Shown: piece after piece, positions 4,609-37,262 of the stretch
Numbering within the stretch: position 1 is the first letter of the stretch
Layout of the letters: each line of letters opens with the position of its first letter
Program-made: the position numbers and the translations under genes
Assembly (NCBI RefSeq): GCF_022606355.1
Contig: NZ_JAHHZQ010000003.1
Location: 124,001-188,000, forward strand
Direction of reading: 5' to 3'
Length of the DNA: 64,000 nucleotides
Source of the DNA: Leifsonia shinshuensis
Lineage (GTDB): Bacteria > Actinomycetota > Actinomycetes > Actinomycetales > Microbacteriaceae
Notes under the pieces: model-generated
Seen by the model: only the letters and a program-made list of their open reading frames with translations
Database searches by the model: none
What the model was told of the DNA's origin: nothing

Positions 4609-4611
4609 CGT

Positions 4612-13926: not shown

Positions 13927-13936
13927 TCGATCGCGA

Positions 13937-20457: not shown

Positions 20458-21126
20458 CTAGAGCAGCTTGCGCTCGAGCGCCCAGGCGGTGAGCTCGTGA
20501 CGCGACGAGAGCTGGAGCTTGCGCAGCACAGCGGAGACGTGGGTCTCCACCGTCTTGACCGAGATGAACAGCTCGGCGGCGACCTCCTTGTAGGCGTAGC
20601 CGCGCGCGATCAGGCGCATCACCTCGCGCTCGCGCGCCGAGAGACGGTCGAGCTCGTCCGTGGTCTCGGCCTGCTCTCCCGCTGTCGCACCGAACGCGTC
20701 GAGCACGAAGCCGGCGAGCTTCGGCGAGAAGACCGCGTCTCCGCCGGCCACGGCGACGACCGCGTCGCTCACCTGACGCCCGGAGCTGCCCTTGGTCAGG
20801 TACCCGCGGGCGCCGGCCCGGATGACGCCGACGACGTCCTCCGCCGCGTCGGACACGCTCAACGCGAGGAACCGGGTCCCCGCGCTCTCGGCGACGGTGC
20901 GACGGAGCACCTCCGCGCCGCCTCCGCCCGCGCCGCCCGGCAGGTGCACGTCGAGCAGCACGACCTCCGGCCGGGTGCGGAGGATCGCCTCCACCGCCCC
21001 GTCGACGTCCTGTGCCTCAGCGACCACGTGGAGGCGGTCGTCGAGGTCTGCGCGGAGGCCGGAACGGAAGATCGAATGGTCGTCCACGATCACGACGGTG
21101 ATCGGACGCGGCGTCTCGTCGGTCAT
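20458..21126 (-). CDS. LuxR/NarL-family response regulator
   Basis: A 222-residue response regulator. The receiver domain has VVIVDDHSIFRSGL and phospho-acceptor Asp59 in VVLLDVHLPG, with Lys in RGYLTKGSSGRQ. The C-terminal LuxR-type helix-turn-helix is LSAREREVMRLIARGYAYKEVAAEL-type ending in SVKTVETHVSAVLRKL. It begins four bases after the kinase gene stop, so it is in an operon with it. By analogy with LiaR-like systems it probably responds to envelope stress and controls the divergent PspC operon. That target assignment is inference. Confidence 0.92.
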   Translation of the reverse strand: MTDETPRPITVVIVDDHSIFRSGLRADLDDRLHVVAEAQDVDGAVEAILRTRPEVVLLDVHLPGGAGGGGAEVLRRTVAESAGTRFLALSVSDAAEDVVGVIRAGARGYLTKGSSGRQVSDAVVAVAGGDAVFSPKLAGFVLDAFGATAGEQAETTDELDRLSAREREVMRLIARGYAYKEVAAELFISVKTVETHVSAVLRKLQLSSRHELTAWALERKLL

Positions 21127-21130
21127 CTGC

Positions 21131-22333: not shown

Positions 22334-22448
22334 ACCTGGAATCCAAGCAGACGGGACCGCCGCCCGACAGCCGAGCGGGAAGGAATCAGGGTCCGCTCAG
22401 GGTGACCCCGGATAGCGGGAGATGCGCCGGGCGCGCCACGATCGAGTC

Positions 22449-24089
22449 ATGGTGAACGACGGCACGACCCCTCCTCCTCCCGGTGCGACGCCTCCGGGTG
22501 CGACTCCTCCCGGTGCGACGCCTCCTGGTGCGACGCCTCCGGGCCAGACGCACACACCGTCCGGCCCGTACGGCGGACCGCGGACCGGCTTCTCCGGCCG
22601 CGGCACCCGCTTCTTCGACTGGATGCGCGGTCTCGGCGTCACGCGCACCGACGGTTGGATCGGCGGCGTCTGCGCCGGCATCGCGTACCGCATCGGCATC
22701 GACCCGCTGATCGTCCGCGGAATCGTCGGGGTCGCCGCCCTGCTCGGCGCCCCGGTCGTCCTGCTCTATGCGATCGCCTGGGCCCTGCTGCCCGACCGCG
22801 ACGGCCGGATCCACCTGCAGCGGCTGTTCGAGGGCGAGTTCGAGGCCCCGATCGTGGCCATCGGCGTGCTGATCGTGCTTTCCCTCCTGCCGTGGTCCAA
22901 CGGGATCTGGTGGTTCGGCGGCCCGTTCGGTCACGACCCGGGCTGGTTCGACGTCGTGGGCCGCGTCTTCTGGACCCTCATCGTGCTCGGCGCTGCAGCC
23001 GCGCTCATCGTCGTCGCCGTGCGCAACGCCGACCGGCGATCGGGCGGGAACGCCGGCGCGCCGGCACCGTCCGCAGGCGCTGCGCCGTCCACCACGAACG
23101 TGTCGCCCACCACGAACGCGTCGGCTTCGCCGGCATCGCCCGTGTCGCCCGCCGCAACTGCTCCGGCGTCCGCGGCAGCCGCCGCACCCGCGGCACCGGC
23201 CGTCGCGATCGCCTCCGAGCCGGCGGCGCCGCCCGCACCCGGGGCGGGAGCGAGCGAGCAGGAGGTCGCCGACTGGCGCGACCGTCAGGCGCAGTGGCGG
23301 GCAGAGCACGAGCAGTGGAAGCAGCGCCTGGCCGAGGACATGCGCGCCGTGAAGGCGCAGCGCTCCGCCGAGCTGAAGGCGCAGGCGTCAGCGGCCAACG
23401 CCGAGGCCGAAGCGCGCCGGGCGTCCTATCGCGCCGCCAACCCCCGGGTGGGAGCGGCGATCGGGTGGCTCGCCGTCGGACTGGCGCTGGTCGCGGCCTC
23501 CCTCACCGGAGCGTTCTGGGGCGCGCTGACCGGCCTGCCCGGTTACGCGCTCACGGCCTCGCTCGCCTCCGCCACGCTCGTCTTCGGGGTGACCGTGCTC
23601 ATCGCGGGGATCGCCCGCCGCCGGAGCGGTTTCCTGATCTTCCTCGGCATCCTCCTGGCGGCGCTCACCGCGGTCGCCGCGCTGCTGCCGACCTCGCCCG
23701 GCGTACGCCTGGACGCCAGCGTGAGTTCCCGGTCGCAGCTGTCGGTCGCGCCGTCGGGAAGCGCCAACTACCTGCAGGCCTGGGGTGACACGACCATCGA
23801 TCTGAGCCGGGCCGTCAGGTCCTCCCGGGCTCCCGTCGTCAACCTGGCGAAGGGCCCCGGCGAGACGACGGTCGTGGTCCCCGACGACGCGACGATACGG
23901 CTGGAGGCCGCGACGGTGTCGTCGGTGACCGTCATCGATCCGGCGGGGGGACGCCAGGTGCATCACTGCGATCCCGCGTTCCTCGGCGGCTGCGACACCG
24001 ACCTGGTCGTCGGTCCGGCCGCGACTCCGCAGGTCGTCGTCCGCATCGCACAGGTCGACGGCGTGCGCGTCGAACGAGTCCAGAAGTGA
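22449..24089 (+). CDS. PspC domain membrane protein with LiaF-like C-terminal region
   Basis: A 546-residue protein. It begins with a Pro-rich segment made of five PPGAT-type repeats, then a PspC domain (GWIGGVCAGIAYRIGIDPLIVRG and a membrane helix), further membrane helices, a long Ala/Pro linker, a charged coiled-coil-like stretch (EVADWRDRQAQWRAEHEQWK), four more helices and a C-terminal beta-rich domain (GDTTIDLSRAV, VVVPDDATIRLEAATVSS) like those of LiaF/adhesin families. ATG 22449 lies six bases after CACGAT, a leaderless-type start. It faces the PspC kinase and is probably its partner or target. Confidence 0.85.
   Translation: MVNDGTTPPPPGATPPGATPPGATPPGATPPGQTHTPSGPYGGPRTGFSGRGTRFFDWMRGLGVTRTDGWIGGVCAGIAYRIGIDPLIVRGIVGVAALLGAPVVLLYAIAWALLPDRDGRIHLQRLFEGEFEAPIVAIGVLIVLSLLPWSNGIWWFGGPFGHDPGWFDVVGRVFWTLIVLGAAAALIVVAVRNADRRSGGNAGAPAPSAGAAPSTTNVSPTTNASASPASPVSPAATAPASAAAAAPAAPAVAIASEPAAPPAPGAGASEQEVADWRDRQAQWRAEHEQWKQRLAEDMRAVKAQRSAELKAQASAANAEAEARRASYRAANPRVGAAIGWLAVGLALVAASLTGAFWGALTGLPGYALTASLASATLVFGVTVLIAGIARRRSGFLIFLGILLAALTAVAALLPTSPGVRLDASVSSRSQLSVAPSGSANYLQAWGDTTIDLSRAVRSSRAPVVNLAKGPGETTVVVPDDATIRLEAATVSSVTVIDPAGGRQVHHCDPAFLGGCDTDLVVGPAATPQVVVRIAQVDGVRVERVQK
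22476..22550 (+). repeat. In-frame 15-bp tandem repeat, five copies (PPGAT)
   Basis: Five units of the form cctcccggtgcgacg run head to tail at the start of the PspC gene, with one to four changes each. The last unit (cctccgggccagacg) is the most divergent. Copy number could vary between strains. Confidence 0.9.
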
Positions 24090-24100
24090 AGGAGCACGAT

Positions 24101-24640
24101 ATGACCACGAACGCCGACGACCCCACCTCCGGCCCCGACGAGACGAGCTCGACCGAGACGAGCTCCCCCGCCGTGACACCGACCGACGCCCCGCTCGAAC
24201 AGGGACCCGCCGAGACGATCTCGCTCGACGAAGCCGTCACCCCGAGCGCCGACACCATCTCCCTCGACGAGCCCGCGGCGTCCCTCTACGAGCCCGTCGC
24301 GCCGGCACACCCGACTCCGGCCCCGGCCGCCCCTCCCACGCCGACCCGGCCGCCTGTGCACACGGGCGCCTTCTCCGTGCCCCCGACCGGCCGGCGTCGT
24401 CCGCCAGTGCGCTGGGCCGGCATCGTCTGGGGCGTGCTGCTCGCCGTGTTCGCGGCAGTGACCCTTTTCGTGGTCTCGTCGCCCGCCCGGCTGGCCGGTG
24501 TCACCGTGTGGGTCAGCACGCTCACCCCGGGAGCGGCGTGGGCGCTGTGGATCGCGCTGCTCGGACTCGTGATCGTCGTGTCAGCGCTGCTCGGCGCGAT
24601 CGGAGCCGCGCAGCGGAGTCGCCGTCGCCGCACGTTCTGA
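24101..24640 (+). CDS. Membrane protein of unknown function, second gene of the PspC operon
   Basis: A 179-residue protein not matched to a known family. The first 90 residues are Pro/Thr/Ser/Asp-rich and probably disordered, with a near-repeat ETISLDEAV / DTISLDEPA. Two membrane helices follow (WAGIVWGVLLAVFAAVTLFVV and WALWIALLGLVIVVSALLGA), with a basic C-terminal tail RSRRRRTF. AAGGAG lies six bases before ATG 24101 and only 11 bases separate it from the PspC gene, so it is co-expressed and likely part of the same envelope-stress response. Confidence 0.8.
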   Translation: MTTNADDPTSGPDETSSTETSSPAVTPTDAPLEQGPAETISLDEAVTPSADTISLDEPAASLYEPVAPAHPTPAPAAPPTPTRPPVHTGAFSVPPTGRRRPPVRWAGIVWGVLLAVFAAVTLFVVSSPARLAGVTVWVSTLTPGAAWALWIALLGLVIVVSALLGAIGAAQRSRRRRTF

Positions 24641-24962
24641 CCTGTCGCGGTAGCGGTGGTCCCGGCCGAGGGCGCACAGGCAGTGGACGCGGATCGTCCG
24701 CCCCGTCTCGCTCATCGTGTGGAGTTCGGTGTGGCCGGGACCGGCTGTCTTCCTGGCGCTCATCGGCGTTGTCCCCCTTCGTGGCGTTCGTGCGTCCATC
24801 GTCGGTGACGCGATCGTGGGGATCGCCGTGCCCGGTGGCCGCACGGCCCTCCGGCCATCGACTCTTCGCCACCGAGTTCACCCCGGTCACCGGCGATCAC
24901 CTCCTGGCCGTTCCGGGACGCGGAGGACCACACCGGCGGAGGCCGGGCGCCGCTCGGCGACT
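24641..24962. other. Intergenic region with no convincing gene
   Basis: About 320 bases between the PspC operon and the exopolysaccharide locus. Open frames here have no ribosome-binding site and no recognisable domain. I see no strong hairpin or promoter. Confidence 0.5.
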
Positions 24963-25088
24963 ATGAAGAGAACACAGACACGAGGCGTTCGGATCCTCAG
25001 CGCACCAGCAGAGGATCCCGCCCGAACGTCGAGGCCTCCACGCTCGAGACGCCGACGACGCCTCGCCCGGCCGCAGGAGGTGGAGTGA
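24963..25088 (+). CDS. Possible 41-residue small ORF coupled to the nucleotidyltransferase
   Basis: An ATG-started frame whose TGA overlaps the GTG of the next gene by four bases (GTGA), the usual mark of translational coupling. The product starts MKRTQTRGVRILSAPAEDPA and has an Arg-rich second half. Its first codons are rich in A at the third position, unlike the surroundings. There is no clear ribosome-binding site next to the ATG. It may be a precursor or leader peptide of the PqqD/kinase system, a decayed gene, or chance. Confidence 0.25.
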   Translation: MKRTQTRGVRILSAPAEDPARTSRPPRSRRRRRLARPQEVE

Positions 25089-26041
25089 AAAGAATGGTGA
25101 AACACGCAGGGCTCCGGTCCTCGCCGCTGGCCGTCTCCACCCTCCTCCTGACGGCCGCGGTCGCCCGTCTCGGGGCAGCCGACGGGATCCGCCTGCTCGT
25201 CATCAAGGGCGTCGTCGCGACGGAGTACGACCTCCGGCGCCCTCGGGCGAGCAGCGACGTCGACGTCGTGGTGGCGCCCGACGACTTCGACGCGTTCGTC
25301 TCGACTCTCGAAGCGCGCGGCTGGGTACGACGGGCACACGATCCGGACACCGACACCTTCCCGCTGCACAGCGTCAGCGTCTACCACCCGAACTGGGCCG
25401 CGGACATCGACGTGCACTTTCGCTACCCGGGGCTCGAAGCACCGCCGGCCGAGGTCTTCGACCTGCTCTGGGCTCAGCGGACGACCTTCTGGTGCGGCAA
25501 CCAGCCGGTCCTCATCCCCGGCCTCGCCGACGCGATCACGATCGGCGCCGTCCACGCCATCCGGTCGATCTGGTCCGAGAGCCACCGTGCCGAACTCGAC
25601 TACCTCGTCCGGCGCTGCCGGCGCATCGACACCGAGCTCCTGATCGCGCGAGCGCGCGAGCTCGGAGCGCTCGCGACGAGCCGTCCCTTCCTCGAGCGCC
25701 TCCTGCCGATGCACTCCGACATCGAATGGGGAGAGCCCTCCGCCGAGTGGCGCATGCGAACGGAGTTCCCGGAGGCGATCGACCGCCGGGTCCTGCTGTG
25801 GAAGCAGGCGACCCCTCGGGAGCGTCTGACGAAGCTCCGGCACGCGCTCTTCCCGTCGGTCTCCGCCCTCGTGAAGCAGACCACCCGGAACCGTCTCGGC
25901 CCCGCCGAGCTCGTCGCGAGCTACCTGGCCAGGTGGGCTCGCGGTCTGCGGGTGCTTCCGCGCGGGCTCGTCACCCTCGCGCGTTCCACCCGGCGGGCGC
26001 CGACACATCGCACCGACCGAGGCCGTCGCCCGTCTCCCTGA
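25085..26041 (+). CDS. NTP_transf_5-type nucleotidyltransferase family protein
   Basis: A 318-residue protein of the Uncharacterised nucleotidyltransferase family: RLLVIKGVVATEYDL followed by the metal site RASSDVDVVVAPDD (D-X-D), and later WAADIDVHFRY (third acidic position). The C-terminal 180 residues are helical and basic. Members of this family recur beside HprK-related kinases and PqqD-like proteins in exopolysaccharide loci and in some lasso-peptide clusters. GTG 25085 has AGGAGGT just before it; ATG 25094 is the alternative. It probably transfers a nucleotide to a polymer, peptide or protein acceptor, not yet known. Confidence 0.8.
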   Translation: MKRMVKHAGLRSSPLAVSTLLLTAAVARLGAADGIRLLVIKGVVATEYDLRRPRASSDVDVVVAPDDFDAFVSTLEARGWVRRAHDPDTDTFPLHSVSVYHPNWAADIDVHFRYPGLEAPPAEVFDLLWAQRTTFWCGNQPVLIPGLADAITIGAVHAIRSIWSESHRAELDYLVRRCRRIDTELLIARARELGALATSRPFLERLLPMHSDIEWGEPSAEWRMRTEFPEAIDRRVLLWKQATPRERLTKLRHALFPSVSALVKQTTRNRLGPAELVASYLARWARGLRVLPRGLVTLARSTRRAPTHRTDRGRRPSP

Positions 26042-26062
26042 TCGCGTACGGCGGAGACAGCG

Positions 26063-28201
26063 TCACGGACGGATGGCCGCCGCGAGGACGATTCCGAGAC
26101 GCTCCGAGTAGGCGGAGCTGAGATGCCCCCGGTCCACCCGGATCGGGGTCCCCGCCGCGAAGATCGGGCAGACACCCGACGGCGCGCAGAACCACGCGCG
26201 AGTCGAGATGAACTCGACATCGCGCCCGGACACGGCCTCGGCACGCGCCGCCGCGGCCTCTGCTGCCGACTTCGCCTCCCAGGCCTCCGACGGTGTCGTC
26301 TCGCAGGTCGCGGGCGACAGGACGCGCAGCGCGCAGTCGATCGGAGCCGGTCCCTCTGGCGGAGACTCGAGCACGAGCGTGCGCGGAACCCCGGCGAGCG
26401 CACGGAGCATGTCGGCCGTTCCTGCCCGCCACGAACCGCCAGGATCGGCCGTACCGACCTGTCGTTCGAAGCTTCCCACCGCTGACGAGAGCACCACCAG
26501 GTCGGGGCTCGCCGCGAGCGCCCGGTCCACCGCCGCGGTCCGCGCCGAGTCGCACTCGTCACGGAAGGCGCGGTGGCGGGAGGCCTCGTCGACGGTCACA
26601 TCCGCCGCCGGACAGCTCTGGAACGTGATGGCGATGATCCGCCACCCCGCGAGAGCCGGCTCGAGAGCAGGAAGCCAGCTCGCCGCGATGGAGTCGCCGA
26701 GGACGACAGCCGTGCGATCGCCCGCCGGGTCTCCCAGGACGCACTGCGCCGACATGCGCTTCACCTTCGCGGCGATATCCCCGCTCGTGTCGGAGAGGCA
26801 GCCGTGCTCCCAGGCCTGACTTAGGGAGCTGTCGGCGCGGGTCAGATTGCCGATCGGTGGCGAGAGGTCCGGCCAGCTCGTGCTCATCGCCGCCGTGGTG
26901 AGGGCCCTCGCGAGCTCGTCGGCCGACGGGAACGACGGGGCGCCGGCGACCTGGTTGGGCTGCGGCTTGGCGAAGCTCGGACGGGGCGCCCACGGGAGGG
27001 TGCACGCCACGACGAGCGCGAGCGCCAGGCTCGCTCCGAGCACACGGTCCCACCGGAGCGCGCGTGTCGGCCGCTTCGGCGAATCGCTCACCGAGGCGAA
27101 GACACGTTCGGCTCCGGCGGAGCCGAACCGGGAATGCCGGAAGGGCGTCTCGATGAAGCGGTACGAGAGCGCGGAGAGGACGACCATCCCGACGAACGCG
27201 AGCGCGAGCTGCCACGGCGTCTGCGACGGGCTCATGACGACGAGGAAGATGATGACCGGCCAATGCCAGAGGTAGAGCGAGTACGAGATCTTGCCGAAGA
27301 ACCGCGCCACCGGGTTGGTCAGCGCGAACTGCCAGCGACCCGGCCGATCGGAGAACAGGATCGCTGACGTCCCCAGCACCGGGAGCGCAGCCCACGGTCC
27401 GGGGAACGTCGTCGACTCGGTGATGGCGAAGGCGGAGGCCACGATCACGCCGAGTCCCGTGAGCCAGATGACGGCGTGCGCCCGGCCGCCGAGTGCTGCG
27501 GAGACGCTCTTCGGAACGAGCGCCACGAGCGCGCCGGCTCCCAGCTCCCAAGCGCGGGTCGTGGTCGAGAAGTACGCGAACGTCGGGCGGAGCTCCGATT
27601 CCACGCAGGCCGCGACGAACGAGACGGCCACTCCGATCAGCAGGCCGACGATGAGTGCTCGTCGACGGGCGGCCGAGCTCCGGAAGAGGGCGGCGGCGAG
27701 GATGAGCAGCCAGGGCCAGAGGAGGTAGAACTGCTCCTCGACGGAGAGCGACCAGTAATGCTGGAACGGCGACGGGACCGAGGTCGTGGCGAAGTACTGC
27801 GTCCCCCGCCTGATCAGGTTCCAGTTCTCGACGAACGCGGCGGAGAACACCGCATCCCACGTGGTCTCGATCGCGCGCACCGGGAAGAAGACGAGCCAGC
27901 TGGCGATGGTGGTCACGGCCAGGACGATGAGGGCGGCGGGCACGATCCGCAGGAACCGCCGCCGATAGAAGTCGACGAAGGAGATCGTGCCTTTGAGCTC
28001 GAGCTGACGGATCAGGATTCCGGTGATCAGATAGCCCGAGATCACGAAGAAGACGTCGACCCCGATGAACCCGCCCTCCGGCCAGACGATCAGATGGCTG
28101 CCGACGACCAGCAGAACCGCCACACTGCGGAGGCCCTCGATGTCCGTTCGGAAATGCCCCCTGGTCGTGGTCGGGGTGCTCACGCTCACCGTTGCCGTCA
28201 T
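26063..28201 (-). CDS. Acyltransferase 3 / SGNH fusion (OafA/YrhL type)
   Basis: A 712-residue membrane enzyme that O-acylates envelope polysaccharide. The N-terminal acyltransferase-3 domain has the catalytic pattern FRTDIEGLRSVAVLLVVGSH with Arg24 and His36, then FIGVDVFFVISGYLIT and YWSLSVEEQFYLLWP, over about ten membrane helices to residue 420. The C-terminal extracellular SGNH domain has VVLGDSIAASW (Ser block), and the Asp-His pair in IRVDRGHLSSAYS. Both catalytic sets look intact, so an acyl group can be moved across the membrane and then onto sugar. It lies 25 bases after the sugar transferase gene on the same strand and is probably co-transcribed. Confidence 0.92.
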   Translation of the reverse strand: MTATVSVSTPTTTRGHFRTDIEGLRSVAVLLVVGSHLIVWPEGGFIGVDVFFVISGYLITGILIRQLELKGTISFVDFYRRRFLRIVPAALIVLAVTTIASWLVFFPVRAIETTWDAVFSAAFVENWNLIRRGTQYFATTSVPSPFQHYWSLSVEEQFYLLWPWLLILAAALFRSSAARRRALIVGLLIGVAVSFVAACVESELRPTFAYFSTTTRAWELGAGALVALVPKSVSAALGGRAHAVIWLTGLGVIVASAFAITESTTFPGPWAALPVLGTSAILFSDRPGRWQFALTNPVARFFGKISYSLYLWHWPVIIFLVVMSPSQTPWQLALAFVGMVVLSALSYRFIETPFRHSRFGSAGAERVFASVSDSPKRPTRALRWDRVLGASLALALVVACTLPWAPRPSFAKPQPNQVAGAPSFPSADELARALTTAAMSTSWPDLSPPIGNLTRADSSLSQAWEHGCLSDTSGDIAAKVKRMSAQCVLGDPAGDRTAVVLGDSIAASWLPALEPALAGWRIIAITFQSCPAADVTVDEASRHRAFRDECDSARTAAVDRALAASPDLVVLSSAVGSFERQVGTADPGGSWRAGTADMLRALAGVPRTLVLESPPEGPAPIDCALRVLSPATCETTPSEAWEAKSAAEAAAARAEAVSGRDVEFISTRAWFCAPSGVCPIFAAGTPIRVDRGHLSSAYSERLGIVLAAAIRP

Positions 28202-28226
28202 GAGGAAGCACCGGCTTTCGATCGCA

Positions 28227-29639
28227 TCAATAGGCGCCGTTCGGCCGGATCATCACGGCGACGGTCTGGAACATGATGTGCAGGTCTCCGCCCAGCGACC
28301 AGTTCTCGACGTAGAAGAGGTCGAGCCGGACACCCTGCTCCCAGGTCAGATCGGATCGGCCGTTGACCTGCCAGAGGCCGGTCATCCCCGGCTTGACGAT
28401 CAACCGGCGGAGGCTGGCCCGGTCGTACTCGGCGACCTCGGACGGCAGTGGAGGCCGCGGCCCGACAAGGCTCATCTCCCCGCGCAGGACGTTCCACAGC
28501 TGCGGGAACTCGTCGATGGAGGTCTTGCGGAGGAGCCGGCCGATCCGCGTGACTCTCGGGTCGTCCTTGATCTTGAACAGCGGGCCGGACCCCTCGTTCT
28601 GATCCCGGAGGTCATCGACCTCGCGCTCCGCCCCGATCCGCATGGTGCGCAGCTTGTGGATCGCGAACTCCTTGCCGTCGCGGCCGATGCGGGTCTGCTG
28701 GAAGAAGACCGGCCCCGGGCTGTCGAGCTTGATGAGGAGCGCACAGACGGCGATGAGGGGCAGTGCGACGAGCAGCCCGAAGAAGCTGAACACGAGATCG
28801 AAGGCCCGCTTGCCACGCCGCTTGGTGATGGACCGATCAGCGGGCTCGACCTCGATGATCGGCAGTCGCTCGATCGGGTGGAACTCCGCGCGCGGGGCGG
28901 CGAGCTCCGGAACGTCGACGGAGAGCCACACCACGGCACCGGAGCCTTCGACGTCCCAGATGAGCTGGCGGACGTTCGTCTGCGCCCGCTCCTCCGTGAG
29001 AACGATGACGTCGACGTCGTTCTCGGCGATGAGCTCCAGGAGGAGTTTGCGGCGACCGACCGTCTCGACGGGCGCCGTCGCGACGATGCTCACGCCGACG
29101 GGCGAGATCGACTCGTCGAAGACCCGGGCGAGGTCGCTCGCGCGCTTCGGCGTACCGATCACGAGTGCGCGTCGCAGGTACCTGCCACGGGTGCGGTGCG
29201 CTCCGATCCACACACGGCAGACGACCCGGACGATCAGCAGGCTCACGAGGCCGATGGGAAGCGCACCCGCCAGGTAGGCGCGCGAGAGGTCGACCTCGAA
29301 GACGAGAGCGATGATGGCCAGGAGCGCGATCACGAGAACCGTCGCCTTGATCGGCGGGAGCAGGGATGGCCCGTTGAGGCGCTTCGGCCAGGTCACCCAG
29401 CCGCCGAAACCGGCGACGGCGATCAGCCAGGTCAGCACCAGCACCGTCGAGACGACCCAGTAGGTGGTCTGGAGACCGCCGAAGCTGACTCGGCCCTCCC
29501 AGTGACCGAAGCGGAGCACATGGGCGGCGGTGACGGCCAGGACGATGGCCGCCGCATCGGCCACGGCCAGCGAGATCGCCGAGCGCTCACGCTTGCTCAG
29601 GGCGCGGTCCTTGGTCTCGGTCTGCAGGGAGGCCATCAT
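28227..29639 (-). CDS. Polyprenyl-phosphate sugar phosphotransferase (exopolysaccharide initiating enzyme)
   Basis: A 470-residue WbaP/WcaJ-like enzyme that loads the first sugar-1-phosphate onto undecaprenyl phosphate. Four or five N-terminal membrane helices and a Rossmann-like CoA-binding-type domain ([20 protein letters not shown]) precede the catalytic C-terminal domain with [66 protein letters not shown] and [14 protein letters not shown]. Its ATG at 29639 overlaps the LCP stop by one base (TGATG). The sugar cannot be deduced. Confidence 0.94.
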
Positions 29640-30721
29640 CAGCGCACCCCCGATCCGAGTTCGCCGCTGGTGAATCGGGCGATGAGGTCGTCGTCGGCGA
29701 GCGCCTTTCGGACGATCGCGAGACGGGTCTCGTCGACTTTCACGATCGATTGGCCGTCGGGTGAGCTTCCGGTGCCGGCCGTGGGCAGCGTGAAGGTATG
29801 GATGGAGTCGTTGTTCAGCCCGCGCGAACCGAGCGCGAGGCCGGCGACCGTCGCCGAGGTGAGACCATCGTCCGCAGCGATGTACCGGGCCAGCGTTCCG
29901 ACGGCCGACTGCAGCTTCAGCGGATCCGAGAGCGTGCCCGTGTTGATGAAACCGAGGACCAGAGCCCGGATGAATGCCTGCTGATTCCGGACGCGCTGGT
30001 AGTCCGCGTCGGCGAACGAGTAGCGCTCTCGGACGAACGCGAGCGCCCTCGGCCCCTCCACGAGGTTGTATCCCTTCTGGTAGCTGTAGCCCGGCATGTT
30101 CCGGGACTGGAACGCCTTGTCGGACCACACATCGACGCCGCCGAGAGCGGTCGCGATCGAGCCGAACCCTCCGAAGTCGACGAGCATCACGTGATCGATA
30201 CGGGTGTCGAGCAGGGACTCGACGGTCTGCACGGCGAGGGGGACGCCTCCCCAGCTGAAGGCGGCGTTCAGCTTCGCCGTGCCGTGACCGGGCACCGGTA
30301 CCCAGAGGTCGCGCATCATCGACATGACCGTGATCCCTGAGCCGTCCTTCGGCACATTGACGAGCATCATGGTGTCCGACAGCTCGCCCGTCGCCTTGCC
30401 CGACAGGACGTCGCCCAGCCCCGATCGTGAATCCGAGCCGATCAGCAGGATGTTGGTCGCGCCGTTGCTCGAGCGTGGACGTGTGTCGTCTCCAGGGAAC
30501 GCGTGCGCGATCCGGGTGACCCCGTTGTCGAACGTGCCGCCGAGCCAGATCAGGTACCCGCCGATCAGGGACACCGGGAGCACGACGATCAGTGCGACGG
30601 CCGTCAGCCAGATCCAGAGCGCTCGGCGTCGACGACGCTTGCGCTGCTGACGTGCGGCGCGTGCGGTCTGCCGCTCCTCCGCGGAATCGAAGATCGCCTC
30701 CAGGTCGTCGAGATCGCTCAC
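29639..30721 (-). CDS. LytR-CpsA-Psr (LCP) family protein
   Basis: A 360-residue LCP protein that transfers lipid-linked polymers to the cell wall. A basic cytoplasmic start (RQQRKRRRRRALW) and one membrane helix (LTAVALIVVLPVSLIGGYLIWL) are followed by the catalytic domain with NILLIGSDSRSG, SDTMMLVNVPKDG, VMSMMRDLWVP, KLNAAFSWGG and the Arg motif ALAFVRERYSFADADYQRVRNQQ. GTG 30721 is the start; it overlaps the phosphatase stop by four bases (GTGA). It likely anchors the polysaccharide made by this locus to peptidoglycan. Confidence 0.93.
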   Translation of the reverse strand: MSDLDDLEAIFDSAEERQTARAARQQRKRRRRRALWIWLTAVALIVVLPVSLIGGYLIWLGGTFDNGVTRIAHAFPGDDTRPRSSNGATNILLIGSDSRSGLGDVLSGKATGELSDTMMLVNVPKDGSGITVMSMMRDLWVPVPGHGTAKLNAAFSWGGVPLAVQTVESLLDTRIDHVMLVDFGGFGSIATALGGVDVWSDKAFQSRNMPGYSYQKGYNLVEGPRALAFVRERYSFADADYQRVRNQQAFIRALVLGFINTGTLSDPLKLQSAVGTLARYIAADDGLTSATVAGLALGSRGLNNDSIHTFTLPTAGTGSSPDGQSIVKVDETRLAIVRKALADDDLIARFTSGELGSGVR

Positions 30722-31281
30722 CGCGCCACCCCGGCCAGGAGGTCGATCACCGGAACCACGCGCGTGGCCATCGCGGCGAACGCGGAGTCGGATCGTCCAT
30801 ACGGGTCGGCGATGTCGTCGTCGGCGGCGGGCCTCAGGTCCCCGGCCCTCCGACGCTGGACGGCCGACGCGACGAGCCGCTGCCACCGATCGCCGTCCGC
30901 GGCCGACCCGGGCTGCGCCAGCTCGGCCGCGGCGCGCCCGAACTCCATCAGGGAGAATATCCGCGCGAACGCCGACGGTTCGAGGGAGGCCGCGCGCTCG
31001 CAGTGCTCGACGGTCATCCCGAGGATCAGGTCGGCCTCGCGCAGCATGCGCTCTTCGAGCTGCCGCGCGATGAACCCATCGGGATCTCCGCCGTTGGCCC
31101 GGACCAGCAGGCGCGTCTGCGAAGACATGCCGCGCCCCACGACCGCTCGGGTGCCTGCGCTGCGCACGGAGACCCCTCCGCCCGCCGCAGCGACGCGGGC
31201 GGCGAGGACACGCTCGGCCATCGCGGACCGGCAGATGTTGCCTGTGCACACGAAGAGCACGGAGAACGGGCGGGTGGGCAC
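30718..31281 (-). CDS. Low-molecular-weight protein-tyrosine phosphatase
   Basis: A 187-residue LMW phosphatase. The P-loop CTGNICRS (C-X5-R-S) is at the N terminus after FSVLFV, and the general acid Asp is in DIADPYGRSD. It should dephosphorylate the Tyr cluster of the autokinase encoded nearby, as in capsule systems such as Wzb/Wzc; the pairing is inference from locus context. GTG 31281 is chosen over upstream in-frame starts because GAGGAAGG precedes it by five bases. It is the first gene of the phosphatase-LCP-sugar transferase operon. Confidence 0.93.
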   Translation of the reverse strand: MPTRPFSVLFVCTGNICRSAMAERVLAARVAAAGGGVSVRSAGTRAVVGRGMSSQTRLLVRANGGDPDGFIARQLEERMLREADLILGMTVEHCERAASLEPSAFARIFSLMEFGRAAAELAQPGSAADGDRWQRLVASAVQRRRAGDLRPAADDDIADPYGRSDSAFAAMATRVVPVIDLLAGVAR

Positions 31282-31560
31282 TGGAACCTTCCTCGGGGGG
31301 TCGTGCCGGACAGTCGGCGGAGCGGGGGGAGAGAAGGGAAGTCTTGCGCGACGGATCCCCGTCCCCGGGCTTTCTTGCCGTGCCTTCTGGCCCACGACGG
31401 GCGGTTTCACCTCCGATATCCACCCGTCGCGATGGTCGGACGCCCGCCGGTCACCTCGGATGTCGTTCCGGGTATCCGCGCCCCGGTCGTCTGCCGTCGG
31501 CTCGCTGGACGACTCGGCGTGTGGATACTGGTCGGACTCGTCTCAGAGGGGACCCGGAGC
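31282..31560. other. Divergent intergenic region within the exopolysaccharide locus
   Basis: About 280 bases between the phosphatase (minus) and the HprK-related kinase (plus). It must hold both promoters; I see no clear -35/-10 pair and no inverted repeat strong enough to name. Confidence 0.4.
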
Positions 31561-32673
31561 ATGCCTGTCGAACAGACCGAACCCGCGCGATCGCGCACGC
31601 GGGTCGTGCGCGCGTTGGGTCGCCGGGTGCGCGTCAGCGCGACGGGTGCCGGCGCCGCCGAGTTCTGCTCGTGCTTCGAAACGGCGTGGGACCTGCTGCT
31701 CGACGACGACGCCTCAGCCATCGACGACCAGGTGCCCGTCGTCGTCCCGGACGCGACGGAGGCCACCGTCGCGGCACGCATGGCATCGGTCGAATCACAG
31801 ATCACACTGGCGGCCGTCCGGGGGAACGTCGGGGCAGGACTCCTCTTCCACGCGGCCGCGATGACCGATGCTTCCGGCTCGGCGATCCTCCTCGTCGGCC
31901 CGTCCGGCGCGGGGAAGACGACGGCCGTGCGTCATTTCGGGCGTCATCACGGATATCTGACCGACGAGATCGCCCTCGTGCACGGAGACGCGCTGGTCCT
32001 CTCCTACCAGAAGCCGTTGTCGCTCGTCGGCGCTCCGATGCCGACGAAGGTCCAACGGTCGGCGAACGACCTGGGCCTCGCGCCGGCGCCCTTGCACGAT
32101 TCGATGGTCGAACGCGTGGTCGTACTCGACCGGCGACTGGACGCCGACAAGGGAGCGTCGGTGCAGCGGCTCGGCCTGACCGAGAGCGTCTTCGCCCTCG
32201 TCCCGCGGCTCTCGTCGCTCACCGCGACCCCACGGCCGCTCGTCTCGCTCGGTCGACTCGTCGCCCATGTCGGAGGTGTCGAGCGGCTGACGTACCGCTC
32301 GATCGAGGACCTCGACCCTCGAGCCGTTCCGACATCGCCCCCGCTCGGAGCGGACGCACTCGGCTTCACGCGCCCCCTCGGGTCCACGCCGATCGCTCCG
32401 GTGTCGAGCGCTCCCTGTCGACGCCTGGTCAGGACCGTCCCTCAGGACGCCATCGAGACCTCCGACGCGCTGATCGTGGCGTGCGACAGCACGGTGACCG
32501 CGTTGGCCGGCATCTCGCCGACCCTCTGGCACGAGACGGCGACTCCGCGATCGATGACGGAGGTGCTGCGGGCCGTGCGCGAGGTGCACGGCCGACACGA
32601 CCGCGACGAGGCGATCACGACCTCGAACGTGGACGAGCTCGTCGAGCGTGGGATCCTGCGGTGGCTGCCGTGA
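31561..32673 (+). CDS. HprK-related kinase
   Basis: A 370-residue protein with an HPr-kinase-like P-loop domain: ITLAAVRGNVGAGLLFHAAAM, Walker A LVGPSGAGKTT at 111-121, and YLTDEIALVHGDALV where HPr kinases have their Asp-rich loop. No PTS HPr gene is near. Relatives called HprK-related kinase A sit with a PqqD-like protein and a nucleotidyltransferase in exopolysaccharide loci, and in lasso-peptide clusters a kinase of this type phosphorylates the peptide. ATG 31561 has GGAG before it. It overlaps the PqqD-like gene by four bases, so the two proteins are made together. Confidence 0.8.
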   Translation: MPVEQTEPARSRTRVVRALGRRVRVSATGAGAAEFCSCFETAWDLLLDDDASAIDDQVPVVVPDATEATVAARMASVESQITLAAVRGNVGAGLLFHAAAMTDASGSAILLVGPSGAGKTTAVRHFGRHHGYLTDEIALVHGDALVLSYQKPLSLVGAPMPTKVQRSANDLGLAPAPLHDSMVERVVVLDRRLDADKGASVQRLGLTESVFALVPRLSSLTATPRPLVSLGRLVAHVGGVERLTYRSIEDLDPRAVPTSPPLGADALGFTRPLGSTPIAPVSSAPCRRLVRTVPQDAIETSDALIVACDSTVTALAGISPTLWHETATPRSMTEVLRAVREVHGRHDRDEAITTSNVDELVERGILRWLP

Positions 32674-33092
32674 CTCGCGGAGACCACGCGTCCCCGCCAG
32701 CAGCAGAAGGTGACCGGGCGGATGAAAACGCCACCGACCCCTCCCGCGCCCGTCGACACGCGAGGAACCCGGACGTCATCTGGGTGGAAGCCGTGCAGGG
32801 CCGCCTCGCGATGGCCGACGTCTCGGATTTCCGGCAGTTCGAGCTGACCGGCCCGTCTGCTGAAGTGTGGAGCCGCATCGATGGATTCGCGTCTGACGAT
32901 GAAGTGGTGCGGGCCGTACTCGACTGCTATCCCGAACACCCGGACTCCGCATATGCCGAGTGCGTCTCCCTCATCGAGACGATGGCGAGCCTCGAACTGC
33001 TCGTCCACCAGCCCGACACCGACCGCGGTGTGCCCGACGACCACCGCCCCGGAGGCCGCGTCGTGAAACCCAGCTCAGAAGGGAACCGTTGA
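32670..33092 (+). CDS. PqqD-like peptide-binding protein
   Basis: A 140-residue protein whose residues from about 33 to 110 match the PqqD fold: NPDVIWVEAVQGRLAMAD, FELTGPSAEVWSRIDG, SDDEVVRAVLDCYPE and CVSLIETMASLELLV. PqqD domains recognise leader peptides for modifying enzymes. The N-terminal 30 and C-terminal 25 residues are polar and probably disordered. GTG 32670 overlaps the kinase stop (GTGA), and its own stop abuts the ATG of the tyrosine autokinase with no gap. It may present a peptide or protein substrate to the kinase. No certain precursor peptide is seen. Confidence 0.78.
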   Translation: MTRGDHASPPAAEGDRADENATDPSRARRHARNPDVIWVEAVQGRLAMADVSDFRQFELTGPSAEVWSRIDGFASDDEVVRAVLDCYPEHPDSAYAECVSLIETMASLELLVHQPDTDRGVPDDHRPGGRVVKPSSEGNR

Positions 33093-34655
33093 ATGAGCAC
33101 CCAGACCGAAGCCGCCGACACACGATCGAGATCACGTGAGCTCCGCGACTTCATCTCGATGCTCCGCCGATACTGGGTGGGCGAAGTTCTGATCCTCCTC
33201 GCCACCATCGCCGTCGTCGCGGTCTTCACCGCCCTCCAGCCACGGGTCTACACGTCATCGGCGTCCGGGCTGACGCAGGCGGCCTCCGGAGAGAGCCTGT
33301 CGATGGCGCTCGCCGGCGACAGCCTCGCGAAGTCGCGCGCCGAGACGTACGTGCGCGTCGCCACCTCCGACGCCGTCGCCAAGCGCGCCGCCGAGATCCT
33401 CGGGAACAACCGCAGCGTCGGCGACCTGCTGGGACATGTCAGCGCAAGTCTGCCGGCCGACACCTCCGTCATCGAGATCAGTGCGCGAGCCGACACTCCC
33501 GAGGGCGCCGCCAAGCTCGCGAACACCTGGATCCAGGCCCTCGCGGACCAGGTCAAAGCGATCGAGACTCCGCAGGACGCGATCAACGACGCCGCGATCT
33601 CCTTCGTCCCGCTGGCGGCCGCCCGCGCCCCCTACCTGCCGTCCTCGCCGAACCTGCAGTTCGCACTGGTGCTGGCACTCCTCGCAGGTCTGGCCCTCTC
33701 GTTCGTCTACGGACTCCTCCGCAGTCACTTCGACAGGAAGGTCCGCACCGTGGCCCAGATCGAGGCGCTCATCGATGCTCCTGTCATCGGGACGATCCCG
33801 GCCAGCGACCTCTTCGGCGACCGCAAGCGGATCATCGATCAGTCCGACGACGACACTCATCAGCTGTTCGCCATCTCCGAATCCCTACGCGAACTCCGGA
33901 CGAACCTCAGCTATGTCGACGTCGACAGGCCCCCGCGCGTGATCGTCGTCACGAGCTCCGTCCCCGGCGAGGGCAAATCGACCCTCGCCTCGAACCTCGC
34001 CGACGCCATCGCCGCCTCCAACTCGAACGTCGTCGTCATCGACTGCGATCTCCGGCGACCGACCCAATCCGGGATCTACGGCCTGCGGACCGGAGCGGGG
34101 TTGACCGATGTGCTCAGCGGCCGGCTCTCCATCAACGACGCCCTTCAGGCGCCCACCAGCGACCCGCACCTGCGCGTGCTCCCGTCCGGACGCATTCCAC
34201 CGAACCCGAGCGAGCTGCTCGGCTCCCGCACGATGAAAGAGCTGGTCGACGCCCTCTCCGAGGTCGCCACGGTGATCCTGGACGCCCCGCCCGTCCTGTC
34301 GGTCACGGATGCCGCGATTCTCGGCACGATCGCCGACGGTGTCGTCCTCACGGTCGCAGCCAAGCAGATCACGTCGGAACAGCTCGAGAAGTCGCACCGC
34401 GCGATCCTGCGCGTCCGCGGGCGGGTGCTCGGCGCCGTCCTCAACAAAGTCCCGTCCAACGGTATCGATGCCTACGACTACGGCTACTACCGCAGCGACT
34501 ATTACTATGCGGCAGCTGACACGAACGACGAGTCGGCCTCGAAGGAGACCGCGGCGGACGAGACCGAGGACACCGCCACCCCAGCCAGCCTCGACGAGAC
34601 CCCTGAAACCAGACGTGGCGAGCGCGCTCTCTCGCTTCGGCGACGCGACCGCTGA
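33093..34655 (+). CDS. Polysaccharide tyrosine autokinase (Wzc/CapAB-like BY-kinase)
   Basis: A 520-residue fusion of Wzz-type chain-length domain and bacterial tyrosine kinase. Two membrane helices (about 30-48 and 188-208) flank an external domain. The cytoplasmic kinase has Walker A TSSVPGEGKST at about 287-297, Walker A-prime VVVIDCDLRRP at 313-323, Walker B VILDAPP at 394-400 and a C-terminal Tyr cluster YDYGYYRSDYYY at 461-472, the autophosphorylation site. It controls export and length of the polymer and is opposed by the phosphatase in the same locus. ATG 33093 follows the PqqD-like stop directly. Confidence 0.93.
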   Translation: MSTQTEAADTRSRSRELRDFISMLRRYWVGEVLILLATIAVVAVFTALQPRVYTSSASGLTQAASGESLSMALAGDSLAKSRAETYVRVATSDAVAKRAAEILGNNRSVGDLLGHVSASLPADTSVIEISARADTPEGAAKLANTWIQALADQVKAIETPQDAINDAAISFVPLAAARAPYLPSSPNLQFALVLALLAGLALSFVYGLLRSHFDRKVRTVAQIEALIDAPVIGTIPASDLFGDRKRIIDQSDDDTHQLFAISESLRELRTNLSYVDVDRPPRVIVVTSSVPGEGKSTLASNLADAIAASNSNVVVIDCDLRRPTQSGIYGLRTGAGLTDVLSGRLSINDALQAPTSDPHLRVLPSGRIPPNPSELLGSRTMKELVDALSEVATVILDAPPVLSVTDAAILGTIADGVVLTVAAKQITSEQLEKSHRAILRVRGRVLGAVLNKVPSNGIDAYDYGYYRSDYYYAAADTNDESASKETAADETEDTATPASLDETPETRRGERALSLRRRDR

Positions 34656-34734
34656 GGTCTGCGCGCGGCGGACACCGTCGGGTGGGCGGCGCACCCGTGA
34701 CGCTGGGCGCCCGTGCTGCTGGGCGCCCGCTGTC

Positions 34735-35994
34735 CTACGCCGAGTGCGCCACCAGTGACTTCTCGGGCACCTTCAGCCCCTCGACCCGAGGCGCCGCCGC
34801 GGGGAGGGTCACGAAGACACTGAAGAGGATCCCGGTGTACATCCAGGCGAAGACGTCGAACGAGAAGAACATTCCGATCATCAGGACCAGCAGTGCCCTG
34901 GTCGTCCGGCCGGCGAAGATGAATGCCACGATGGAGACCACGACGAGCAGGATCAGGCCGGCGATGCCCATGGTCCCCAGCGCGTAGACGAACATGTCGT
35001 CGACGACACGCAGGTAGGTCTGCTGCATGTACCCACGGTCGTAGAGGATGTCCACACTGCCGAACCCGGAGCCGAACCAGGCCTCCAGCGGCGGTCGCGC
35101 CAGGAGATTCGGCACCGATTCGAAGGCGCCGAGGCGGTGCGACCACGAACCGGACACGACGAGCTCTTCTGCGATCCGTACGATTCCGACGTCGACGTTC
35201 ACGAGCACGACGCCACTGGCGAGCAACACGTACAGCGTCCGCACCCACGACGTCAGCTTGCCGTTGGACGCCAGATGCACGAGAAGCGCCCCGACGAGCG
35301 AGAGCATGACGCTCCGCGTGCCGCCGATGACCAGTCCGACGGCGAGGCACGCCAACGCCGCGAGTCGCCAGCGCTGCTTCCATTGCGCAGGATTCGACCA
35401 GGCGACGATGAAGGCGATGCCCTGGAGCACCGCGAACGGGATCGGGTGGCCGAGCGTTCCCTGGGTGCGGTCGTAACCGTCGAGGAACGGGTTGTCGCGC
35501 GTGCCCCCGCGGTAGCCCCACACGGGATCGGCGTCGACGAGCACCTCGGCGAGGCCGAGCAGCATCTGGAAGATCGCGGTGAGGACGATCGCGGCGTAGA
35601 GGATCCGGAGCTCGGCCGGGTCGAGCGAGGAGGCGACGTAGGCGGCGAGCACCGCCAAGCCGAAGTACAGGGTCATCGTCGTGAGCGGAAGGCTGCCGGT
35701 CAGCAGGACTCCCATGCCGACCCAGCCCCACCAGACCGAGATCAGGACGAACTGCCGCCCGCCAGCGGCAGGAGCGCGGCTGCGGAGGAGCGCCAGGGTC
35801 AGCAGGGCGATCGATCCGATGAAGCACGCCTGCCAGACCTCGGAAGGGGCGGTGTTGTTCCCGCCGTACGTGAGGAGGAAGAACGCGAGCGACAACGCGA
35901 CGGCCCTGACGACACGCGGCGGAACCATCAGAGTGAACACCGCGCCGACGAGGAGCACAGCGGCGCCGCCGGCCAACAGGAGGAGGGGATTCAT
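34735..35994 (-). CDS. O-antigen ligase/polymerase-like membrane protein (Wzy type)
   Basis: A 419-residue protein with about eleven hydrophobic helices and a large external loop at about 300-360, the layout of Wzy/WaaL-type enzymes. Landmarks are GTRDNPFLDGYDRTQGTLGHP, VIGGTRSVMLSL and SHRLGAFESVPNLLARPPLEAW-type loop with Arg and His, followed by GSGFGSVDILYDRGY. It is assigned as the polymerase joining lipid-linked repeat units, but a ligase role is possible. ATG 35994 overlaps the glycosyltransferase stop by four bases. It converges with the autokinase gene across 79 bases. Confidence 0.83.
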   Translation of the reverse strand: MNPLLLLAGGAAVLLVGAVFTLMVPPRVVRAVALSLAFFLLTYGGNNTAPSEVWQACFIGSIALLTLALLRSRAPAAGGRQFVLISVWWGWVGMGVLLTGSLPLTTMTLYFGLAVLAAYVASSLDPAELRILYAAIVLTAIFQMLLGLAEVLVDADPVWGYRGGTRDNPFLDGYDRTQGTLGHPIPFAVLQGIAFIVAWSNPAQWKQRWRLAALACLAVGLVIGGTRSVMLSLVGALLVHLASNGKLTSWVRTLYVLLASGVVLVNVDVGIVRIAEELVVSGSWSHRLGAFESVPNLLARPPLEAWFGSGFGSVDILYDRGYMQQTYLRVVDDMFVYALGTMGIAGLILLVVVSIVAFIFAGRTTRALLVLMIGMFFSFDVFAWMYTGILFSVFVTLPAAAPRVEGLKVPEKSLVAHSA

Positions 35995-37073
35995 GATCCT
36001 CCCGAGGGCGCGAGCACGGCGCGATATCGCGCCAGCACCGGCCCGAAGACCCGCTCCGGCGATGCCTCGGAGTCCACCCAGCTCTTGGCCTGCGAAATCG
36101 CCGCGGTGCGAGCTCGATCGTCCGTGACGGCACGAGCGATCGTCCGGGCGAACTCGGCGTCGTCCGCGTCGTCGGCGACCTCGAACCCCCGCCCGGAGGC
36201 CAACAGCCCGTTCGCTGCAGACGTCGTCGCGACGACGGGACGTCGGCGCTCGAACGCCTCCAGGACCACGAGCGGGGTGCCCTCCCAGCGTGACGTCATC
36301 ACCAGGACGTGCGCGGCGTCGAGGCGGTCGGGCACGTCGTCGACGTGACCTGCGAACGTGACCGGCGCCCCCAACTCGGCGGCCAGCCTCTCCGCGTCGC
36401 CGCGGAGCTCGCCGTCTCCGACCCAGGTCGCTGCAACCGACATCGTCTCCGCCAGCCGTGCGACGATCCGTACGAACCGGAGCGGGTCCTTCTGCTCGAC
36501 GAGACGCCCGACGGCAAGGATCTGCACCGGTGCCGCGAGGTCCGTCGCCGGCCACTCGCTGGGGCGGGAGGCCGCCCGCTGCGCAGGGGCGTTTCCGACG
36601 ACCACGACGCGGCTCCTCGGTCGACGCGCATCGTAGACGACCATGTCGGCGACCGTCTCTCCGACGGCGAAGACGGTACTGCTCCGGAAAGAGAGCGCTC
36701 GCGGGCGGAGGCTCGGAAGCCGCGTGTGGGCGTGTTCCACGACGGGGATGCCCAGGAGACGGCCGACGATGAGGCTTTGCAGGGCCTCGCGTCGCTGGTG
36801 TGCGTGGAGGATGTCCGGTCTCTCCGTGCGTGCTGCGCGCAGGAGAGCCCTCGTCTGCGTGAGGAATCCCGCGCGCCGCTGCGGGATGAACCGGACGGAG
36901 GGGGCAAGGCGGGATCGCGAGGACCCGGGCTCCCCGACCACGGAGACCACCACCCCGTGCTGGAGCGCGAGCCAGTTGGACAGGTCGACGACGACCTGCT
37001 GGGCGCCCCCTGCACCGATGTTGTCGATCACCTGCATGACCCGGAGCGCTCGGCCTCCGATGGTCTCTGTCAT
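35991..37073 (-). CDS. Glycosyltransferase family 4 (GT-B)
   Basis: A 360-residue GT-B glycosyltransferase. The N-terminal acceptor domain begins RVMQVIDNIGAGGAQQVVVDL, and the C-terminal nucleotide-sugar domain has ILAVGRLVEQKDPLRFV, WVGDGELR and the E-X7-E motif in MTSRWEGTPLVVLEAFERR. It retains the donor configuration and probably adds one of the sugars of the exopolysaccharide repeat unit in the cytoplasm. ATG 37073 is 15 bases after the stop of a small protein gene, so the three genes (small protein, transferase, polymerase) form one minus-strand operon. Confidence 0.92.
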   Translation of the reverse strand: MTETIGGRALRVMQVIDNIGAGGAQQVVVDLSNWLALQHGVVVSVVGEPGSSRSRLAPSVRFIPQRRAGFLTQTRALLRAARTERPDILHAHQRREALQSLIVGRLLGIPVVEHAHTRLPSLRPRALSFRSSTVFAVGETVADMVVYDARRPRSRVVVVGNAPAQRAASRPSEWPATDLAAPVQILAVGRLVEQKDPLRFVRIVARLAETMSVAATWVGDGELRGDAERLAAELGAPVTFAGHVDDVPDRLDAAHVLVMTSRWEGTPLVVLEAFERRRPVVATTSAANGLLASGRGFEVADDADDAEFARTIARAVTDDRARTAAISQAKSWVDSEASPERVFGPVLARYRAVLAPSGGS

Positions 37074-37088
37074 CGGACGGGAGCCCGG

Positions 37089-37262
37089 TCAGCTCGGGTC
37101 GATGACCTGGACGTCGCCGAGTGCGTTGCGAGCCTTGTCGAGAGCCTCGCCGATGTTGCGGGCGTCCATGACGACGACGGCGGCGGTTCCGTTCGGCAGA
37201 CGGAGCCGGAGCTCGAACGGGCGGAGCGGGGACCGTGTACGGGTGCGGGCTGTAGTGGACAC
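37089..37262 (-). CDS. Small protein of unknown function, first gene of the glycosyltransferase operon
   Basis: A 57-residue protein with a beta-beta-alpha-beta look: PFELRLRLPNGTAAVVVMDA, then NIGEALDKARNALGDVQVIDPS, preceded by a basic tail (STTARTRTRSPLR). I do not recognise the family. GTG 37262 is chosen over the longer frame because TACAGT (37269-37274) lies six bases before it on the minus strand, the same spacing found at other leaderless starts here. Because it leads the operon with the GT4 enzyme and polymerase, it may be an accessory or regulatory factor. Confidence 0.62.
   Translation of the reverse strand: MSTTARTRTRSPLRPFELRLRLPNGTAAVVVMDARNIGEALDKARNALGDVQVIDPS

Follow-up and report, generated by a model that had tools for sequence, protein, structure and literature searches.

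A kinase, RRE and nucleotidyltransferase module in an exopolysaccharide locus of Leifsonia shinshuensis and the twin-arginine leader that accompanies its kinase

An exopolysaccharide (EPS) locus of Leifsonia shinshuensis (Actinomycetota, Microbacteriaceae), located in a stretch of 64,000 nucleotides (assembly GCF_022606355.1, contig NZ_JAHHZQ010000003.1, positions 124,001 to 188,000) that is termed the window in the following, encodes an HprK/PEPCK-fold kinase, a PqqD-type recognition element (RRE) of the kind serving ribosomally synthesized and post-translationally modified peptides (RiPPs), and an NTP_transf_5 nucleotidyltransferase-fold protein. In Microbacteriaceae these three recur together as a genuine module, and the kinase and an unusual twin-arginine translocation (Tat) signal, hereafter the leader, are a constant pair across families. 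What the computations show is the module, the folds of its members and a conserved leader that co-occurs with the kinase. The best reading is that of an actinobacterial system working like the biosynthesis of linear polyphosphorylated peptides (LPPs), in which the Tat signal would double as RiPP leader and whole secreted proteins would be phosphorylated, perhaps also glycosylated, before export. That the three proteins constitute a RiPP-like protein-modification module, with Tat-exported surface proteins encoded off-locus in this genome as substrates, is given a probability of roughly 0.6.

The module and its recurrence

A sequence-only reading of the window had placed the three genes in the EPS locus, and all of them are indeed open, codon-biased frames at these positions (Table 1) according to coding potential, open reading frame (ORF) and profile searches. 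As it had also stated, the kinase gene (to 32673) and the PqqD gene (from 32670) overlap, with the gene of a bacterial tyrosine kinase (BY-kinase) next at 33093. The kinase obtained only generic P-loop matches in Pfam, all of them under cut-off, and none over cut-off among the NCBIfam matches listed; a larger protein database assigns PF27840.1 to it. Its AlphaFold model (pLDDT 90.7) resembles PEPCK structures and, less well, HprK/P, and displays the HprK/PEPCK fold with Walker A motif, histidine and acidic pair. In hhalign, the last ~85 residues of the kinase align with separate PqqD proteins (probability 96%, E 2.6e-9, compared with 0.4% for a control with the kinase core) and represent another PqqD-like domain. 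The model of the separate PqqD protein matches lasso RREs and shows the predicted winged-helix RRE fold, its best relatives in the PDB being TbiB1, PbaB1, PqqD and LppB. An in-frame GTG at 32661 is a possible earlier start of this gene, in agreement with homologues some of which begin with MAAV. The protein ends in a conserved tail (window 33060-33092) that coincides with the probable ribosome-binding site of the BY-kinase gene, and thus the conservation of this tail may be translational. In NTP_transf_5, the motif KG..DxD is kept in 23 of 23 frames scoring over 80 bits from kinase loci.

The co-occurrence of the three genes in related genomes, which the sequence-only reading had made a touchstone of its proposal along with the RRE fold of the PqqD-like protein, was found at several levels. 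Among 299 Microbacteriaceae genomes, with kinase-positive defined as more than 100 bits, the kinase was present in 31, PF14907 in 43 and both in 28 (Fisher 3e-25, not corrected for ancestry); PF14907 accordingly occurred in 28/31 kinase-positive and 15/268 kinase-negative genomes. In addition, 35 kinase loci of about 20 kb each, that of the window included, were compared with 20 stretches taken from the same genomes as controls, by means of profiles trained on kinase-locus proteins. NTP_transf_5 was detected in 23 kinase loci and the separate PqqD in 17, neither of them in any control. The same held for BY-kinase (25), glycosylphosphotransferase (18), S26 signal peptidase (14, SipW-type or other), Wzy (12) and LytR-CpsA-Psr (LCP) proteins (8), while a tyrosine phosphatase was present in 25 kinase loci and 1 control; TatA and TatC were encoded in 6/35 and 4/35 kinase loci, respectively. 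Gene fusions also tie members of the module together, and the linkage of kinase, NTP_transf_5 and PqqD is beyond chance. A further possible fusion is a 1396-aa protein at 3939-8129 of locus L170 (genome G785), which scores with the NTP_transf_5 profile and whose start appears glycosyltransferase-like by eye.

Loci from a second family revealed a different composition. In 18 sampled loci, the profiles trained on the first family detected a separate PqqD in three, NTP_transf_5 in three and BY-kinase in four. The EPS link is strong in Microbacteriaceae only, and polymer assembly is seemingly no general part of the system, as BY-kinase falls from 25/35 Microbacteriaceae loci to these 4/18. The earlier suggestion of a modified peptide or protein with a part in polymer assembly has gained a named candidate set, namely full-length Tat-exported proteins, and lost the generality of its polymer role. 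Some loci show the module in compact form: L167 contains leader (9114), kinase (9695), NTP_transf_5 (10866) and PqqD (11738) in one row with no tested EPS gene in its 20 kb, L170 features the order PqqD-leader-kinase, and L172 combines leader, PqqD and a kinase without the C-terminal domain with an 86-aa gene that is seemingly this domain in free-standing form. In a sample of the phylum, kinase matches over E 1e-50 were found in 2/396 genomes outside its own family, and strong matches centre on the order of the window. Kinase matches in G116 (contig C10), G188 (contig C2) and several second-family genomes cross an in-frame stop, so that the gene may be decaying there.

A Tat-type leader that follows the kinase

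Exported proteins near many of the kinases have an unusual Tat signal in common, RRx(4)GAAWxxPx[IVL]...P(x)4S, with the consensus xGxxRRxVxxGAAWxxPVIAxAxATPxAAASxx. After removal of spurious motif matches on both sides, 25 such leaders were counted in 15/35 kinase loci and none in the 20 controls (Fisher 3e-4). Judged by sequence only, they feature the twin arginine, hydrophobic core and AxA-type cleavage site of Tat signals. Outside the training set, W, P (W+3), an aliphatic residue (W+5), P (W+12) and S (W+17) occur in 43/43 rows, which comprise the 11 of this genome and 32 chosen second-family rows (one repeat) and are all profile hits, a circumstance that inflates the conservation; in the training leaders, serine occupies W+17 in 23/25. 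When 30 other RR-type signals, chosen from 20 kinase-negative genomes, were inspected, none contained [WY]xxPx[ILVFA]. In the 10 leader proteins scanned per library, the leader is not covered by any Pfam or NCBIfam model over cut-off.

The 11 leader proteins of this genome (weakest E 5e-6) are distributed over contigs C1, C4, C6 and C8. Leader proteins, whose open frames measure roughly 130-860 aa, are encoded at scattered places in the genome, and among the passengers in this strain, as far as the 9 of 11 scanned are concerned, are RCC1 repeats and an M60 peptidase, both over cut-off, as well as a weak Ig-like match. Four genomes hold 25 or 26 leader matches each.

A profile trained on the leaders near kinases was searched against the same 299 Microbacteriaceae genomes (E<=1e-4). 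It matched 31/31 kinase-positive and 3/268 kinase-negative genomes, and 16 of the 31 had given no training sequence. In 11 of 12 genera mixed for the kinase the leader is fully concordant, and g2 departs from this with two leader-only genomes; shuffling inside genera yields a stratified exact P of 1.5e-10 for the link. In twenty genomes that belong to the same genera but are kinase-negative, no leader match below 0.012 was obtained, although other RR-type signals were present. Moreover, the leader follows the kinase and not NTP_transf_5: the kinase-positive genomes without PF14907 (G090, G171, G203) all possess leaders, and only 2/15 genomes with PF14907 but no kinase do so.

This link was found again elsewhere. 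In the second family (149 genomes), 87 genomes were kinase-positive and 80 leader-positive, with 78 having both, 9 the kinase only, 2 the leader only and 60 neither, i.e., the leader accompanies 78/87 kinase-positive and 2/62 kinase-negative genomes. Both leader-only genomes are incomplete (75% and 83%), and the leader lies within 3 kb of the kinase in 23 of the 71 genomes with leader matches listed. An order-wide sample of 179 genomes, overlapping the earlier ones, comprised 27 kinase-positive and 28 leader-positive genomes; the two coincided in 24, the kinase stood alone in 3 and the leader in 4, and 148 lacked both. Outside both families, the leader was present in all 15 kinase-positive genomes, and the 4 with the leader alone belong there, too.

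The leader-only Microbacteriaceae are G085, G165 and G199. Leader proteins without detected kinase in G165, G199, G843, G900, G912 and G923 may go along with a more divergent kinase or be relics. In G085 (L174, C5), a genome without the main kinase, positions 8881-10961 of another locus encode a divergent HprK-like kinase beside NTP_transf_5. A PqqD gene follows there at 13935-14192, ~3 kb beyond this pair, and a possible ABC exporter was recognized upstream by eye.

Proposed mechanism, known systems and rival explanations

We infer a course of four steps for the proposed modification. First, a cytosolic RRE, i.e., the separate PqqD protein and probably also the C-terminal domain of the kinase, would grip WxxPx[IVL] within the Tat signal peptide. 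The HprK-fold kinase would then phosphorylate the conserved serine 17 residues past the tryptophan, and NTP_transf_5 might put a sugar or nucleotide on the phosphate in the manner of PsmN, which places hexoses on phosphorylated serine in pseudomycoidin (PMC9266682, PMC8498205). Finally, the Tat system would export the folded protein and a signal peptidase, in some loci perhaps the S26 enzyme, would cut off the signal, leaving the marked serine at +1 or +2. Tat carries folded proteins, and hence modification before export suits this route. A fifth step is speculative, namely that in Microbacteriaceae the mark might serve to attach the protein to the adjacent EPS or cell-wall glycopolymer.

The phosphorylation model is proposed mainly because fold, motif and spacing agree with LPP and lasso systems. 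LPPs (LppA/K/B/S/D/N) were described from Bacillota (Nat Commun 2026, PMC13381572). There, the HprK-like kinase LppK polyphosphorylates Ser3, the leader bears Tyr, Pro and Val at -16, -13 and -11, cleavage by a SipW-like peptidase takes place after -1, and discrete RREs bind [Y/W]xxPx[L/V/I/F/A] in lasso and LPP leaders alike (PMC13381572). The W-x-x-P-x-[ILV] of the present leader equals this motif. A cut one residue before the serine would put W, P and the aliphatic residue at -16, -13 and -11 with Ser at +2, as in the aromatic/P/hydrophobic numbering of LPPs, and a cut directly before it would give -17, -14 and -12 with Ser at +1, which corresponds to Tyr-17, Pro-14 and Leu-12 of lasso leaders (PMC10368454). 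Likewise shared with LPPs are an HprK-like kinase (a likeness judged here by the fold and the invariant H, K, D and E), a discrete RRE, an NTP transferase, a polysaccharide neighbourhood, the S26 signal peptidase of the 14 Microbacteriaceae loci, and a serine just past the cleavage site, 18 residues from Tyr in LPPs and 17 from Trp here. Unlike LPPs, which are described as restricted to Bacillota in a report whose main text does not contain 'twin-arginine' (PMC13381572), the present system occurs in Actinomycetota, its leader is a Tat signal and the candidate substrates are proteins of ~130-860 aa, off-locus in this genome. Besides, the kinase has a fused RRE-like domain, and no MsbA-like exporter is found among the genes annotated at 20458-39568, the part of the window to which all statements on missing genes refer. 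From the LPP leader YxxPxVLxHQxIxFETxxS, a motif not itself searched in full, only the aromatic-xxP-x-hydrophobic part and the serine recur. As several LPP features are lacking, the system is regarded as working like LPP biosynthesis but is not classed as LPP.

Phosphorylated lasso peptides (paeninodin with PadeK, pseudomycoidin with PsmK/PsmN, BsfK/BsfN) also combine an HprK-type kinase, an RRE (B1) and a nucleotidyltransferase, their kinases showing a His-Lys-Asp-Asp motif compared with H-K-D-E in this kinase. They differ in the macrolactam synthetase and B2 protease, neither of which is among the annotated genes, and in that the substrates proposed here are not small peptides. The sequence-only reading had called the module HPr-rel-A-like. 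HPr-rel-A (HprK_rel_A, PqqD_rel, NTP_transf_5) is a system of Gram-negative exosortase loci, and the presence of three such enzyme types in an EPS locus, including the PF14907 partner, is a true likeness. Nevertheless, membership in HPr-rel-A is not supported by the kinase, which reaches 18.1 bits against the TIGR04352 (HprK_rel_A) cut-off of 200, nor by the PqqD protein, which has no NCBIfam family match at E<=1; an exosortase is not annotated either. PEP-CTERM/exosortase systems, in which diverse exported proteins genome-wide carry a short sorting signal and dedicated enzymes and EPS genes accompany them, offer a functional analogy in each of these respects, differing in that here an N-terminal signal of Tat type is paired with a kinase/RRE instead of a transpeptidase.

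Several observations weigh against the proposed modification of Tat proteins. None of the 11 leader proteins lies on the window's contig C5 (profile search), and a motif scan found none within the 64-kb window. The cut-off of 1e-4 behind the 3/268 was set after the list had been seen, and at 0.01 the leader profile matches 18/268 kinase-negative Microbacteriaceae. Exceptions occur in both directions, with 9/87 second-family kinase-positive genomes lacking a leader match and leader-only genomes in Microbacteriaceae (3/268), the second family (2/62) and the order sample (4 more). By first-family profiles, 14/18 sampled second-family loci are without separate PqqD and NTP_transf_5. The serine is shifted to W+18 in 2/25 training leaders and replaced by threonine at W+17 in the L167 leader. 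As W and P lie in the hydrophobic signal core, they might be conserved for export alone. Of the published systems, BsfA Y-17A and L-12A were still phosphorylated by the lasso kinase BsfK (PMC10368454), and thus the kinase step may do without the RRE motif. For LppN, the published test detected no effect (PMC13381572), which makes the NTP_transf_5 step a weak one. Modification, binding and export of the leader proteins are predictions by computation, and co-occurrence is no proof of catalysis.

If the proposal is true, RRE-guided modification would extend beyond small peptides and include entire exported proteins, whose export signal would also serve as leader, and a large set of little-annotated Tat proteins would be explained. 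In any case, the orphan kinase/PqqD/NTP_transf_5 combination of polysaccharide loci gains a concrete, testable substrate set, and a simple row of four genes (Intrasporangium oryzae) makes the role of phosphorylated RiPPs beside capsule genes amenable to testing. A far-reaching version appears doubtful, though worth stating: complete secreted proteins in their folded state, up to dozens of them in one genome, would be phosphorylated and phosphoglycosylated under RRE guidance at the serine that forms or adjoins their new N terminus, and the mark would join them covalently to the EPS or glycopolymer of the same locus, amounting to sortase-independent anchoring in Actinomycetota.

Among the rival explanations, that of an export gatekeeper survives best and is still rather improbable. 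REMP chaperones bind Tat signals, and the RRE could similarly be a Tat-signal-binding chaperone whose release, or the export itself, is controlled by the kinase, phosphorylation being transient or on the chaperone and leaving no lasting mark. This would suit an RRE-type motif inside the Tat signal itself, the genome-wide tracking of leader and kinase, and the TatA and TatC copies in some kinase loci, but leaves unexplained the serine beside the cleavage site in all 43 rows, the NTP_transf_5 in the module and the parallel with Ser3 of LPPs. Quite unlikely is an LPP- or lasso-like small peptide whose short precursor gene, within the window or close to it, would have escaped annotation. The enzyme types equal those of paeninodin, pseudomycoidin and LPP clusters, yet, in a search that took in ORFs of at least 45 aa, macrolactam synthetase, B2 protease, S26 peptidase and MsbA-like exporter are all missing from the annotated genes, and 11 proteins with a fitting leader already exist in the genome. 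Equally small chances are given to an EPS regulator, in which kinase and PqqD would target one of the BY-kinase, phosphatase and polymerase encoded in the locus, thereby setting polymer length or output. The module directly adjoins the BY-kinase, and BY-kinase and phosphatase are both frequent in kinase loci, but the leader link persists in the second family, where BY-kinase is rare, and the second kinase locus of this genome (L040) is without any tested EPS gene. A coincidence of ancestry, i.e., a Tat-signal style of lineages that also inherited the kinase, is strongly disfavoured, since the centring of strong kinase matches on one order, to which the leader search was confined, is outweighed by the concordance within 11/12 mixed genera (P 1.5e-10), the replication in other families and the physical adjacency of leader and kinase.

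The locus and its surroundings

The locus begins with NTP_transf_5 on the plus strand, continues with acyltransferase-3/SGNH, glycosylphosphotransferase, LCP and tyrosine phosphatase genes on the minus strand, returns to the plus strand with kinase, PqqD and BY-kinase and closes with Wzy-like and GT4 genes on the minus strand. An S26 signal peptidase is absent from the 20-kb stretch of this locus as well as from the annotated genes.

Table 1. Module genes and neighbouring EPS genes in the window
Feature	Position	Strand	Details
NTP_transf_5 nucleotidyltransferase-fold protein	25085..26041	+	318 aa, KG...DxD motif; PF14907 57.7 bits, cut-off 31.2
Acyltransferase-3 / SGNH protein	26063..28201	-	PF01757 and PF19040 over cut-offs
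Polyprenyl glycosylphosphotransferase (chain initiation)	28227..29639	-	TIGR03025 389 bits, cut-off 295.6
LCP protein	29639..30721	-	PF03816 128.5 bits
Low-molecular-weight protein tyrosine phosphatase	30718..31281	-	PF01451 93.9 bits
HprK/PEPCK-fold P-loop kinase, PF27840-type	31561..32673	+	370 aa; H97, K119, D135, E136
C-terminal PqqD/RRE-like domain of kinase	32413..32670	+	residues 285-370; hhalign vs separate PqqD proteins
Separate PqqD-type RRE protein	32670..33092	+	140 aa from GTG 32670; PF05402 26.1 bits, cut-off 23.4
Wzz/BY-kinase (polysaccharide tyrosine autokinase), directly after PqqD gene	33093..34655	+	TIGR01007 159.1 bits, cut-off 108
Probable Wzy polymerase / O-antigen ligase (tentative)	34735..35994	-	PF04932 19.7 bits, under cut-off 31.7
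GT4 glycosyltransferase	35991..37073	-	PF13692 82.9 bits

A response regulator, a PspC-domain histidine kinase and a PspC/LiaF-like protein beside the locus (window 20458-24640) probably represent a cell-envelope stress module. A second kinase of the same family is encoded outside the window, 38 kb away (G000 contig C5:194823-195908, locus L040). It adjoins catalase/Fur genes and the gene of a surface protein of 1374 aa with DUF7507/DUF11 repeats, and none of the tested EPS genes lies within its 20 kb. This kinase and most of its neighbours, except, by clustering, the repeat protein, are conserved in G178 (L067). A small protein at window 37089-37340 that has no Pfam match is kept at the equivalent place in G178 (cluster c58), too.

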